Shown one piece after another: positions 34,790 to 39,745 of a stretch of DNA of 64,000 nt. Position 1 is the stretch's first letter. Each line of letters opens with the position of its first letter. The stretch spans positions 1,736,001 through 1,800,000 of the forward strand of contig CP014214.1 of the NCBI GenBank assembly GCA_001560915.1, in the 5' to 3' direction. The position numbers and the translations under genes were made by a program. The DNA is from a methanogenic archaeon ISO4-H5. Lineage in GTDB: Archaea > Thermoplasmatota > Thermoplasmata > Methanomassiliicoccales > Methanomethylophilaceae. Below the pieces are notes generated by a model. It was not told the DNA's origin and did not search any database. It worked only from the letters and a program-made list of their open reading frames with translations.

Positions 34790-35527
34790 TCACTCGTTCT
34801 CGATCCTGGGTGCCAGGAAGTATACCACGCGTGCGTGGCCCTCCGCCAGGTTGAAGAGGAACTTGACGGGGTAGTCATTGTCGAGCTGGATTTCCACCAC
34901 GGTACCTGCCGGGATCACCTTGACGATGTTGGAGAAGTAGTCGAGGGGATAGAGGCTGGTGACGGGGGAATCCACCACGATGCTCTCGAGATCGGAGACA
35001 GGGACCCTGAGGCTGGCGTAGTCCATGTCACCCTCGCAGGAAAGCTCGAATCCGTTGGGGTCGGCCATCAGTTTGATGTGGTCGGAAATGGACTCAGCGG
35101 CGCGGATACCCTTCTGAAGCTGATCGATGGGGATCTTGACGCTTACGGGGAGCTCCATCTGGGGGACCTTGGGGTCGTTCATTCCGCTGGTGTCCACGAC
35201 GCTCATGCGCCTGACGATGTTGCCGATGGTGATGGTGAGACGTCCCTGGTCGGGGTCGTGCTCCATGCGGATGGTGTCGCTGGGGCCGGCGAGCTTCAGG
35301 ACGGTCTTGATCTTGTCGAGGTCGAGTCCGATCTCGGACTCATCAGCCTCGTAGCTGATGAAGGCGTCTTTGTCCACGACAATCTCCATCATGGCGACGT
35401 GGGCGGGGTCCATGGCCTTCATGCTGATGGAGTCCGCGTTGATGGTGATCTTGGTCTCGTCGACCAAGGTGGAGATGATGTAGACCAGACCCTTGAGGGT
35501 GTCTGCCTTGAGTTCTGCTTTGAACAT
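34790..35527 (-). CDS. DNA polymerase sliding clamp (PCNA)
   Basis: A 245-residue clamp that tethers polymerase B/D and other replication enzymes to DNA as a trimeric ring. It begins MFKAELKADTLKGLVYI and contains DPAHVAMMEIVV and the C-terminal YFLAPRIE. Size is usual. The ATG at 35527 was picked from homology; the frame stays open 42 nt upstream into TFS. Located between TFS and transketolase genes. Confidence 0.94.
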   Translation of the reverse strand: MFKAELKADTLKGLVYIISTLVDETKITINADSISMKAMDPAHVAMMEIVVDKDAFISYEADESEIGLDLDKIKTVLKLAGPSDTIRMEHDPDQGRLTITIGNIVRRMSVVDTSGMNDPKVPQMELPVSVKIPIDQLQKGIRAAESISDHIKLMADPNGFELSCEGDMDYASLRVPVSDLESIVVDSPVTSLYPLDYFSNIVKVIPAGTVVEIQLDNDYPVKFLFNLAEGHARVVYFLAPRIENE

Positions 35528-35541
35528 CTTGGCCACCCGCC

Positions 35542-35871
35542 TCAGTTGACTCTCCAGTTGTGGTTGCACTTACAGCAGCGGTAGAACACGGTCTCAGGCT
35601 CATCCGCGGCACGGGTCTGCCTGATGACGTAGTACGCTTCTGTGTGCCCACACTTGGGGCAGAGGATGTTGGTCTTAGGGAGGGTGGCGTCATCGGAAAG
35701 GATTCCGATCTCCTTCTCCTGGGAGTTGGTCTTGACGATGGTGGCTCCTCCGATGGGTACGGTACAGTCGCAGGGCCTGTCCTCTCCGGTTACCTTATCC
35801 TTAACGGTTCCCCTGCAAACGTACTTACCGTTGGAAGGGAACATCATAGATCCGCATTCTGGGCAAAACAA
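35542..35871 (-). CDS. Transcription factor S (TFIIS-like)
   Basis: A 109-residue RNA polymerase cleavage factor. The N-terminal zinc ribbon CPECG...C and the C-terminal ribbon (CPKCGH...CCKCNHNW) are both visible, with the acidic hairpin tip residues in RAADEPETVFY. It rescues backtracked polymerase. The start appears to be TTG at 35871, after GAGGCTGA, because no ATG precedes the first Cys ribbon. First gene of the seven-gene run ending with taw2. Confidence 0.93.
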   Translation of the reverse strand: MFCPECGSMMFPSNGKYVCRGTVKDKVTGEDRPCDCTVPIGGATIVKTNSQEKEIGILSDDATLPKTNILCPKCGHTEAYYVIRQTRAADEPETVFYRCCKCNHNWRVN

Positions 35872-36164: not shown

Positions 36165-38129
36165 TCAGCGCTTCTTCTTCGCCTTGGACTTCTTGGCCTT
36201 CTTCATGGCGCGGATGTTCTCCTTTACGGCGTCGTAGACCACCTGTGCCTCGTCGGCACCGTCGGTAATCTTGGACTCAGCGAAGTGGAGGACAATCCAG
36301 CCCTTCTTGGCGAGGACTTCGTCGTTGCTGTGGTCGGGAGTGTCTTCGTCGATGTAGACTGCGACCTTGCTCTTGACGAATGCCACGGGGATGAAGTAGG
36401 GACCGTAGTTCTTCCTGCAGCGGAGACCCTTGTTCCAGCAGGCCCTCCTGAGGAGTGCTGCGGGGGTGTCGGGCTCGAGCTCGAAGTCATCGTCGTCGAA
36501 GTCTTCGTCTCCGGCCATTTCGCCCTCGGGCTCATCGCCGGTACTGACAACGATTCCAGTGAGTGCGGAAAGCTTCTCGTAGAGCGGGGGATCGACAACA
36601 CTGATGACGGCCATGATCTCATAGTCGGACATCTCCTCTGCCCTCTCCTCGCCGACTTCTGCGACGGTAACTTCCCATCCCTGCCTGAGGAGCCTGTCGA
36701 GTTCGCTCTCCTCCTCTGCGGGTTCGTCCTTGGCGGCTGCGGCTGCTGCTCCTGCGAATACTGCTGCACCGGCGGCTGCACCAGCTGCTGCGGCGGCCTC
36801 TGCTGCCTTGGCTCCCTCGGCGGCCTTCTTGGCGGCCTCTTCCTCAGCTGCTTTCTTGGCGGCTTCCTCTTTGGCTGCTGCCTCCTTTGCTGCTGCTTCC
36901 TCAGCTGCCTTCTTGGCGGCTTCCTCTTCAGCGGCTTTCTTAGCGGCCTCCTCTTCGGCTGCCTTCTTGGCAGCCTCTTCCTCAGCTGCCTTCTTGGCTG
37001 CCTCTTCTGCCTCGGCCTTGGCCTTGGCTTCCTCAGCTGCCTTAGCGGCTGCGGCTTCCTGGGCTGCCTTGGCGGCTGCCTCTTCCTCGGGAGATACTGC
37101 TGCCCTCAGTCCGGTAGCCTCAGCGATCTTGTTGTAGAGATCCTCGTCCTCCTTGCGGATGACTGCCATGATCTCCTCGTCGGACATGTCTTCTGCCTCG
37201 TCGCCGACCTTGGCGGTAGCGACGTTCCAGCCCTGCTCGAGGAGCTTGTTGAGCTCTTCTTCCTTGGCTGCCTTGGCGGCTGCCTCCCTGGCCTCAGCCT
37301 CCTCTGCTGCGGCCTTCTTGGCTGCGGCTTCGGCTGCGATCTGGGCTGCGGCGGACTCCTCGGGAGAGACTGCGGTGTGAGTGTATGCTGCGTTGAGTCC
37401 GGTGGCCTCGGACACCTTGTTGTAGAGGTCCTCGTCTGCCTCGCGGACGACAGCCATGATCTCCTCGTCGGACATGTCCTGGAGTTTGTCCTCGCCGACC
37501 TTGGCGGCTGCGGCATTCCAGGCCTGCTCGAGGAGGTCGTCGCACTCAGCCTGCTTGGCGGCTGCCGCCTCGATCTCGGCAGCGGTGAGCTTGGCGGGAA
37601 CTGCGACTGCGACACCTGCGAGAATCAGAAGGATGATTCCGAGGAAGACAGTGACCATTCCGCCGAGAAGTGCGATGAGGTAGAGTGCGTAGAGTGCGAC
37701 ACCCAGGATGACTGCGATAACGGAGAATACGTACCTCCTCTTCTCGACGCCCATGATGAGGACTGCGAATGCAAGGAAGAAGAATGCTCCGAGGAAGTCG
37801 TATTCGACACTCCTCTCAGTGATTGCGGTAACGTTGTTGAGAACGTTGATCAGAAGGATGATTCCGAGAACTGCGAAGGATGCTCCGGCGATGGAGACGG
37901 AACATTTCTTCGAGGAAACACCTGCGGCGACCGCCGTTATAGCGGCCACAAATAGAATCAGACTCGCGATGATGGCGACCTGTTCAAACTTGTCGTTTAC
38001 TAGATATGCACTCAGCCTGACGCCTTCCTCGAGGGTTAAACCGTCGGAGAGGGCGAGGGCGATTGCGATGAAGAATACTATGCCTGCAATGATGGAAATG
38101 ATGCCGGCACATTTAGCCCAACCGTTCAT
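36165..38129 (-). CDS. Membrane protein with threefold repeat and DUF559-like end
   Basis: A 654-residue protein I do not know. Residues 7-177 hold about six membrane helices. Three diverged 50-residue units follow: 196-245, 292-341 and 476-526, each with LLxQxW, MSDxEIMAV and LYxKxxxxTG. They are separated by Ala/Glu/Lys-rich stretches, including a 9-residue period AAKKAAEEE at about 377-437 that should form a rigid single helix. Residues 554-641 (LLRRACWNKGLRCRKNYG, VAVYIDED, KKGWIVLHF) resemble the Vsr/DUF559 nuclease fold, but the usual catalytic Asp after GPY seems replaced by Pro-Val. The tail is Lys-rich. The ATG is 25 bp from a TATA box, so it is probably leaderless. Function unknown. 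Confidence 0.88.
   Translation of the reverse strand: MNGWAKCAGIISIIAGIVFFIAIALALSDGLTLEEGVRLSAYLVNDKFEQVAIIASLILFVAAITAVAAGVSSKKCSVSIAGASFAVLGIILLINVLNNVTAITERSVEYDFLGAFFFLAFAVLIMGVEKRRYVFSVIAVILGVALYALYLIALLGGMVTVFLGIILLILAGVAVAVPAKLTAAEIEAAAAKQAECDDLLEQAWNAAAAKVGEDKLQDMSDEEIMAVVREADEDLYNKVSEATGLNAAYTHTAVSPEESAAAQIAAEAAAKKAAAEEAEAREAAAKAAKEEELNKLLEQGWNVATAKVGDEAEDMSDEEIMAVIRKEDEDLYNKIAEATGLRAAVSPEEEAAAKAAQEAAAAKAAEEAKAKAEAEEAAKKAAEEEAAKKAAEEEAAKKAAEEEAAKKAAEEAAAKEAAAKEEAAKKAAEEEAAKKAAEGAKAAEAAAAAGAAAGAAVFAGAAAAAAKDEPAEEESELDRLLRQGWEVTVAEVGEERAEEMSDYEIMAVISVVDPPLYEKLSALTGIVVSTGDEPEGEMAGDEDFDDDDFELEPDTPAALLRRACWNKGLRCRKNYGPYFIPVAFVKSKVAVYIDEDTPDHSNDEVLAKKGWIVLHFAESKITDGADEAQVVYDAVKENIRAMKKAKKSKAKKKR
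36819..37001 (-). repeat. 27-bp-period repeat inside the 36165 gene
   Basis: About six degenerate 27-bp units encoding variants of AAKKAAEEE. They are in frame and code for a probable single alpha helix. Copy number may vary between strains. Confidence 0.75.
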
Positions 38130-38386: not shown

Positions 38387-38503
38387 GGGAGAGGGATTAA
38401 GAGGGTCATTCACGCACGGCAATAGCCGTTGCTATCACAGTCTCGGAGAGCCGCTCTCCATTCATGCCGAAAGGCAAAATCACAGACACAGGAGATAAAA
38501 CCC

Positions 38504-39745
38504 ATGAAAATGAAATGCAACTTCCTCGGAGGGGCCGACATCGTTGGACGTATGGCCATGACGATGGAGGTCGACGGGAAAACCATGCTTGTGGAGTACG
38601 GAATCAGTCCCACCAAGCCCCCGGAGTACCCGCTCCCCATCCCCGGAAAAATCGATCACGTTTTCCTGACCCACAGCCACCTCGACCACTGCGGTATGAT
38701 CCCCGCAGTGTGCGGAAAACAGAACTGCGAGCTGTTCACCACCCCTCTGACCGCCGAGATCGCGGAGCTGATGATGTACGACAGTCTCAAGATCGCCAAG
38801 GCCGAGGGATACCCCCAGCCCTACACTCAGAAGGACATCGAGACTACCATGAAGCACGTCGTCCCCCTCACCTTCGACGACACCATCGAGCTCGGTAAGG
38901 TCGACGTCACCTTCCGTTCCGCGGGACACGTCCCCGGAGCCACCATGTTCGAGTTCCAGGGAGAAGAGGGCAGCACCATCTACTCCGGCGACATCCACAC
39001 CGAGGACCAGAAACTGGTTCTCGGAGCCAGACCCAGGGACTGCAGGAACCTCTTCATCGAGGGAACCTACGGAGGCAGGAACCATCCCCCGAAGGAGGAA
39101 ACCATCAACGCCTTCATCGCCAAGATTGACGAGGTCATCGACCGCGGAGGAAGGGTCATCATCCCCTGCTTCGCCGTCGGAAGGACCCAGGAGATCATGC
39201 TCCTGCTGAAGAACCTCGGATACGAGATGTGGGTCGACGGAATGGGAAGGAGCGTCACCAACCTCTTCCTCGACTACCCCGAGTACATCAGGAACGCCAA
39301 ATCCCTCAAAGCCGCCAAGAAGACCTTCAACGAGGTCAGGAGCAGCGCCATGAGGCGCAAGGCCGTGGAGGGCCAGATCATCGTCACCACCGGAGGAATG
39401 CTGGACGGAGGACCTGTCCTCACCTACCTCAGGACCCTCAAGGACGACCCCAAGAACGCCATCCTCCTCGTCGGTTACCAGGCAGAGGACACCAACGGAA
39501 GGATGCTCATGGAGAAGGGCTGCATCGACCTCGACGGAGAGATCGTCAATGTGGCATGCGAAGTGCAGAAGTTCGACTTCTCCGCACACGCGGGACACGA
39601 CCAGATCGTCGAGTTCATCCGCGCCTGCGACCCCGAGAACGTCATCATCATGCACTCGGAGACCAGGGAGCTCTTCCTCCCCGACCTCGAGGATTACAAC
39701 GTGATCCTTCCCAAACCCAACGAACCCTTCGAGCTGGATATATGA
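38504..39745 (+). CDS. Beta-CASP metallo-beta-lactamase ribonuclease
   Basis: A 413-residue zinc-dependent RNA nuclease. The metallo-beta-lactamase core has HSHLDHCG, RSAGHVPGA and YSGDIHTEDQ; the beta-CASP insert has IPCFAVGRTQEIML, FSAHAGHD and HSETREL. There is no N-terminal KH pair, so it resembles the shorter aCPSF2/RNase J-like archaeal enzymes rather than the termination factor FttA. The ATG at 38504 follows AGGAGAT at 8 nt. It overlaps nadC by 4 nt (ATGA). Confidence 0.92.
   Translation: MKMKCNFLGGADIVGRMAMTMEVDGKTMLVEYGISPTKPPEYPLPIPGKIDHVFLTHSHLDHCGMIPAVCGKQNCELFTTPLTAEIAELMMYDSLKIAKAEGYPQPYTQKDIETTMKHVVPLTFDDTIELGKVDVTFRSAGHVPGATMFEFQGEEGSTIYSGDIHTEDQKLVLGARPRDCRNLFIEGTYGGRNHPPKEETINAFIAKIDEVIDRGGRVIIPCFAVGRTQEIMLLLKNLGYEMWVDGMGRSVTNLFLDYPEYIRNAKSLKAAKKTFNEVRSSAMRRKAVEGQIIVTTGGMLDGGPVLTYLRTLKDDPKNAILLVGYQAEDTNGRMLMEKGCIDLDGEIVNVACEVQKFDFSAHAGHDQIVEFIRACDPENVIIMHSETRELFLPDLEDYNVILPKPNEPFELDI

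Follow-up and report, generated by a model that had tools for sequence, protein, structure and literature searches.

Vsr endonucleases (PF03852) are free-standing repair enzymes whose FWH segment acts as an aromatic wedge against DNA. The related family DUF559 (PF04480), represented among known structures by the putative endonuclease-like protein NGO0050 (3hrl), is marked by the motifs IVDF and IEVDG. In Vsr, the catalytic residues D51 and H69 are paired (PMC11879112). FASTKD4, a mitochondrial RNA-binding protein with FAST domains, ends in a RAP domain whose Vsr-like cavity has been reused for binding; the protein binds RNA, shows no sign of cleavage and apparently has no nuclease activity (PMC11879112). 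A further point of comparison comes from the membrane heterodisulfide reductase HdrDE of Methanosarcinales, in which HdrE ordinarily anchors HdrD to the membrane. HdrE is absent from the order Methanomassiliicoccales (PMC4153887, PMC10804542), for which one proposal is that HdrD contacts an Fpo-like complex directly (PMC10804542). Neither paper settles how HdrD reaches the membrane in these organisms, which have neither HdrE nor cytochromes (PMC4153887, PMC10804542). The order contributes to ruminant methane. The member examined here, ISO4-H5, is a sheep-rumen methanogen with a published chromosome of 1,937,882 bp and 54% G+C (PMC5011839).

The window, by which we mean the whole 64,000-nucleotide stretch of ISO4-H5 DNA that was analyzed, contains a gene for a 654-residue protein (Table 1). 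The protein consists of six membrane helices, three units of ~50 residues that share the motif MSDEEIMAV, a single helix of ~108 residues, and a Vsr-like C-terminal domain (CTD); we refer to the part between membrane and CTD as the stalk. The assigned start agrees with the N termini of orthologues (MNGLAKASGI..., MNGWTKTFGI...), which occur in 6 of the 14 genera of the family. An earlier note, made from the sequence alone, had described a membrane-anchored rod with six membrane helices, three diverged but related units, an Ala/Glu/Lys helix of 9-residue period, and a possibly inactive Vsr/DUF559-like end that lacks an expected Asp, and had recognized no described protein with this arrangement. 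Each of these elements was recovered by the hydropathy, alignment, and structure-model analyses given below, and neither Pfam nor NCBIfam yielded a match to the protein above threshold, all hits being composition-driven or sub-threshold. A role as sensor or DNA tether, which the note had also raised, is speculative. The 4Fe-4S motifs and CCG domains that are present in the HdrD host of the CTD (see below) are absent from the window protein. The layout is described nowhere in the domain libraries and literature that were searched; the CTD itself is of known fold. That we are dealing with a polytopic membrane protein that displays a dead Vsr-type domain on a predicted cytoplasmic stalk is well supported.

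Table 1. Features of the locus. Positions are those of the window, except for the CobS gene, which lies elsewhere in the same genome.
Feature	Positions	Strand	Basis or remark
PCNA	34790-35569	-	conserved neighbor of the slot, not specific to the stalk gene
TFS	35542-35871	-	conserved neighbor of the slot, not specific to the stalk gene
Whole gene, 654-aa membrane-stalk-CTD protein	36165-38129	-	ORF with ATG start; orthologues
Lys-rich tail at the C terminus (net charge +9), residues 641-654	36168-36209	-	charge count
CTD (dead Vsr-like domain), residues 554-640	36210-36470	-	AlphaFold2 topology, Foldseek, hhalign
Acidic linker (net charge -13), modeled with low confidence, residues 527-553	36471-36551	-	pLDDT <50 at 530-551
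MSDEEIMAV unit 3, residues 476-528, variant MSDYEIMAV	36546-36704	-	alignment, shuffle z, AlphaFold2 helices
Ala/Glu/Lys single-helix spacer, residues 347-454	36768-37091	-	tandem repeat; AlphaFold2 continuous helix
MSDEEIMAV unit 2, residues 292-343	37101-37256	-	alignment, shuffle z, AlphaFold2 helices
MSDEEIMAV unit 1, residues 196-247	37389-37544	-	alignment, shuffle z, AlphaFold2 helices
Six transmembrane helices, residues 4-180	37590-38120	-	hydropathy, AlphaFold2, loop charges
Beta-CASP metallo-beta-lactamase	38429-39745	+	divergent neighbor
Unit-bearing CobS	L002:1426-2706 (G000:C1 about 1389333-1390613)		

AlphaFold2 places the membrane helices at residues 4-28, 46-73, 76-97, 105-128, 132-155, and 158 to ~180, and hydropathy likewise gives six. 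Across 24 aligned proteins, the outer loops are acidic (mean charges -2.7 and -1.7) and the inner loops are neutral to basic (+0.3 and +0.9), a positive-inside pattern by which both the N and the C terminus are predicted to be cytoplasmic. The membrane part matches no known family, and a Foldseek search with the full-length model returned nothing for it or for the MSDEEIMAV units. A short conserved motif close to MSS(R/K)(D/E)A or LVSSKDA occurs in the linker of 25 of the 40 membrane CTD proteins (L063, L067, L070, L075, L087, L123, and others) and is found neither in the HdrD hosts nor in the window protein.

The three MSDEEIMAV units are clearly related to one another. Local scores between units lie 22-29 SD above those of shuffled sequences, and every unit is modeled by AlphaFold2 as one long helix and two 11-residue helices (pLDDT about 86-93), contrary to the structurally unrelated units that the note had named as a refutation. 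A fourth copy, together with a linker, precedes the CobS domain (from residue ~150) at the N terminus of CobS, a multi-pass membrane enzyme of cobamide synthesis, in the same genome, and when it is aligned with the other three, 19 of 54 columns are invariant; a relative (G045:C34) has a unit matching that of CobS in an apparently equivalent place. In the stalk protein, the number of copies ranges from one to at least four. The spacer between units 2 and 3, modeled as one unbroken helix, shows its 9-residue period as a 27-base tandem repeat (seven copies, 75% match, positions 36815-37007). Among CTD proteins, spacers range from 56 to 849 residues, and in two relatives (L061 and L062, from genomes G036 and G035), the MSDEEIMAV units are replaced by a coiled-coil-like repeat (NAKENEQ) in stalk spacers of 719-849 residues.

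The units are narrowly distributed. They are present in 7 of the 14 genomes of the genus and missing from the family's 88 other genomes; among 400 genomes sampled from the class, no recognized relative turned up in other genera. Most orthologues of the stalk protein lack them, and the layout does not need them. Of the features that the earlier note had suggested following through the orthologues, the missing Asp is widely kept (102 of 110 CTD copies, below) but the repeats are not. The occurrence of the unit in half of one genus, on both the stalk protein and CobS, marks it as a young mobile module, so far seen on membrane proteins only. Matches of the unit to EF-hand and DUF7326 profiles (E 0.01-0.02) were judged to be due to chance.

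The identity of the CTD rests on several lines of evidence. Modeled alone from an alignment of 63 sequences, it adopts an H-E-E-E-H-E-H order (pLDDT 82; 81-96 within the full-length model) that includes the alpha-beta-beta-beta-alpha-beta core of the PD-(D/E)xK superfamily by both DSSP of the AlphaFold2 model and Foldseek. The best Foldseek matches in the PDB are the endonuclease I-Bth0305I (3r3p; probability 1.00, E 4e-3, TM 0.66-0.71 on the target) and the DUF559 protein NGO0050 (probability 1.00, TM 0.72), and the next-best match has a probability of 0.38. In an hhalign comparison with Vsr from the same archaeal family (five proteins), the CTD profile reached a probability of 99.0 (E 4e-18; 82 aligned columns at 32% identity, interrupted by one long gap), against 0.2 for an unrelated control. 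The window CTD falls below the Pfam cut-offs for Vsr (12.7 versus 27 bits) and DUF559 (14.4 versus 20.6 bits), and an HdrD protein with five tandem CTDs clears both (59.4 and 51.4 bits, respectively). Weak matches to DUF559 (47) and Vsr (31) are the two commonest among 79 diverse CTDs, and RAP is not among the Pfam families matched by them. With Vsr, the CTD shares the core fold and the segments LR..LW.RGLR(Y/C)RKN, KVAVF.D, and GWTVLRF; it differs in lacking the PD Asp and the FWHG.DW block, and in being fused to a membrane stalk or to HdrD. It also lacks the acidic residues of the DUF559 motif, a family for which no match at E <= 1e-8 was found in 147 genomes of the order. True Vsr endonucleases are encoded in 50 of these genomes, and that of the window genome (317883-318098 of G000:C1) is presumably the DNA mismatch endonuclease gene of the AR505_0313-0358 element. 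In the published genome, that gene sits in this 32-kb mobile element (PMC5011839). A viral origin was considered and dropped, as neither the CTD nor the unit had relatives in IMG/VR, nor the CTD in phage records.

The catalytic site has been lost. The interval from strand 3 to the GW motif, G(Y/W)TV in Vsr, is 14-18 residues long in all 110 CTD copies examined and 45 in 11 of 11 Vsr proteins. What is missing is a block of ~29 residues, SEFWHGYDWE...YWIPKIERN in Vsr, and with it the FWH segment bearing the catalytic His (E. coli H69); no copy contains WH. This block was either deleted or never present in the ancestor of the CTD. The position of the catalytic Asp (E. coli D51) corresponds to residue 581, which is Pro in the window protein and which among the 110 copies is Pro in 69, Thr in 20, Asp in 8, Asn in 5, Gln in 5, His in 2, and Glu in 1. 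An HMMER alignment to 3r3p alone had instead put the Asp position at A583, and we discarded that assignment in favor of the Vsr alignment; neither residue is acidic here. Nor are the PD...(D/E)xK residues found at position 583, which is Ala in 109 of the 110 copies, or at position 592, where 108 copies have Phe or Tyr. The absence of the block from every copy and the replacement of residue 581 in nearly all point to a loss of catalysis that is old and common to the whole CTD family. The earlier note had called the nuclease-like tail degraded; the loss is family-wide, however, and not a decay of the window gene.

Could the CTD nevertheless be an active, divergent nuclease that uses another set of residues? 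Active-site residues may migrate within PD-(D/E)xK domains, the Glu of Vsr (E25) is retained in most copies (residue 557 is Glu in 69 and Asp in 15 of the 110), and eight copies do have Asp-581, all of them the last or last-but-one CTDs of tandem arrays in one genus (g7). Residue 557 is Ala in the window protein, however, and beyond the substitutions at 581 and 592 there is no conserved His, leaving D623, in an ITDG loop, as the sole near-invariant acidic residue. We therefore consider an active enzyme highly improbable and regard it as almost certain that the CTD is a dead Vsr-like domain. It provides a clear archaeal example in which the fold of a repair endonuclease has taken on a non-catalytic role, with up to seven in an array in one genus.

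The CTD occurs on two kinds of host, and it is this link to HdrD, an enzyme central to methane formation, more than the three repeats, that is the surprise of the locus. Among the 147 genomes of the order that were searched, 84 of the 102 that belong to the family have a CTD match and the 45 others have none, and a scan of GTDB genomes with a 16-row CTD alignment gave 78 loci, all with names consistent with the same archaeal group. The 110 copies come from 80 loci, in which the CTD lies at the C terminus of 40 six-TM membrane proteins and at least 27 HdrD-like proteins with 4Fe-4S and CCG domains; the other 13 entries are a true Vsr, a truncated protein with three CTDs, and fragments, most of which can be assigned from their ends. 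An HdrD orthologue is encoded in 145 of the 147 genomes and measures 390-450 residues without the CTD and 550-1090 with it. Both hosts carry the domain in genera g3, g6, g8, and g14, only the membrane protein in g1 and g9, only HdrD in g2, g5, g7, g11, and g12, and neither in g4, g10, g13, and part of g9. The membrane CTD gene and the HdrD gene are not neighbors. Along the CTD tree, the host label changes 2 times, versus 21 for shuffled labels, and one origin per host was not rejected by a tree test; a second jump between hosts in g14 was set aside, since a single HdrD-CTD clade was not rejected (p-AU 0.317). In g7, HdrD bears 4-7 tandem CTDs (L096-L102) whose sequences are position-specific and common to the genomes. 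In the truncated three-CTD protein (L064:3-1304, from G039, of the same genus as the window genome), the CTDs are spaced by Ala/Glu/Lys helices, the host part lying beyond the contig end.

This distribution bears on the idea that the CTD is a neutral passenger, a functionless Vsr fragment caught by chance at two gene ends. The 18 family genomes without a CTD and the wide range of spacer lengths would fit such a view. It is already disfavored, and we hold it to be improbable, because conservation reaches at least 90% at about 14 positions across the 79 diverse CTDs, the domain is retained in most of the family, and the tandem copies of g7 keep their position-specific sequence.

We favor a reading in which the dead Vsr domain is a module for docking at the membrane. 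The CTD would help to hold HdrD, or a partner common with HdrD, at the membrane, acting in cis where it is fused to HdrD and in trans where the membrane protein alone carries it, as in the window genome. Because the CTD is fused to HdrD elsewhere and separate here, a "Rosetta stone" argument suggests contact between stalk protein and HdrD, direct or via a common partner. The MSDEEIMAV units would lengthen the stalk. Since CobS, a membrane enzyme, has a copy too, they may also form another contact module, specific to this clade. To this overall explanation, docking, possibly for HdrD, we assign a probability of roughly 40%. Its parts differ in strength. That the CTD mediates protein docking of some kind is about an even bet, and that HdrD or an HdrD complex is the ligand is possible, if somewhat doubtful. 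The most specific version, in which a dead repair nuclease was recruited as a membrane-docking part of heterodisulfide reductase and bridges HdrD and the membrane-bound Fpo-like complex in these HdrE-less gut methanogens, is quite unlikely. The parallel to HdrDE of Methanosarcinales lies in the HdrD core, which is the other CTD host, and in the idea of a membrane partner; it ends there, as HdrE is a cytochrome b anchor, whereas the stalk protein belongs to no known family. A dead Vsr domain on both HdrD and a membrane stalk provides a testable handle on how HdrD meets the membrane.

Three observations weigh against docking. First, the genomes without either CTD host and the several genera with one host only imply that the CTD is dispensable and that the two hosts need not cooperate. 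Second, the genes of the two hosts lie apart. Third, the Lys-rich tail and Arg-rich core could serve equally well in binding nucleic acid. On that view, the CTD and tail bind DNA or RNA, so that the membrane protein would fix transcripts or the chromosome to the membrane, and HdrD would be tethered or regulated in a like manner. Vsr is a DNA-binding fold, the net charge of the tail across 25 aligned proteins runs from +4 to +13 and averages +6.8, FASTKD4 with its RAP domain offers a precedent, and R561, R562, R570, and R572 are among the near-invariant residues of the 110 copies (the others being W565, Y575, G576, A583, W611, T622, and D623). These arginines, however, are also present in Vsr (LR..LW.RGLRYRKN) and may be structural. 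The CTD core has a net charge of about zero and is preceded by a strongly acidic linker, and the block absent from all CTDs bears the FWH segment by which Vsr engages DNA. Such a tether would, moreover, leave the presence of the CTD on HdrD unexplained. We judge it rather unlikely, though the leading alternative, and retain protein docking as a tentatively preferred reading.

A role in replication, suggested by the adjacent PCNA and TFS genes, was rejected because the slot between TFS and beta-CASP is conserved across the order and, in genomes without the stalk gene, is occupied by a 3-4 TM protein unrelated to it; most genomes of the order that lack the CTD gene likewise retain the beta-CASP neighbor. 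On the side of HdrD, a ~920-residue helicase-like ORF adjoins the gene in nearly all of 18 compared loci (L241:3835-7880 and equivalents), with or without the CTD, and was discounted as a CTD-linked clue for that reason. The 3-4 TM slot protein is itself conserved (L217, L219, L220, L223-L239), with the sequence LLWWLPIFGQMIAGYVGGRRAGS and a C terminus reading DWEFI or DFEYI; it has no Pfam match and was not found in genera g1 and g9. Finally, a second, divergent PCNA-like gene of 29-34% identity is present in a few genomes, at G077:C1:1051750-1052445, G100:C2:88163-88891, and G127:C54:407-1111.
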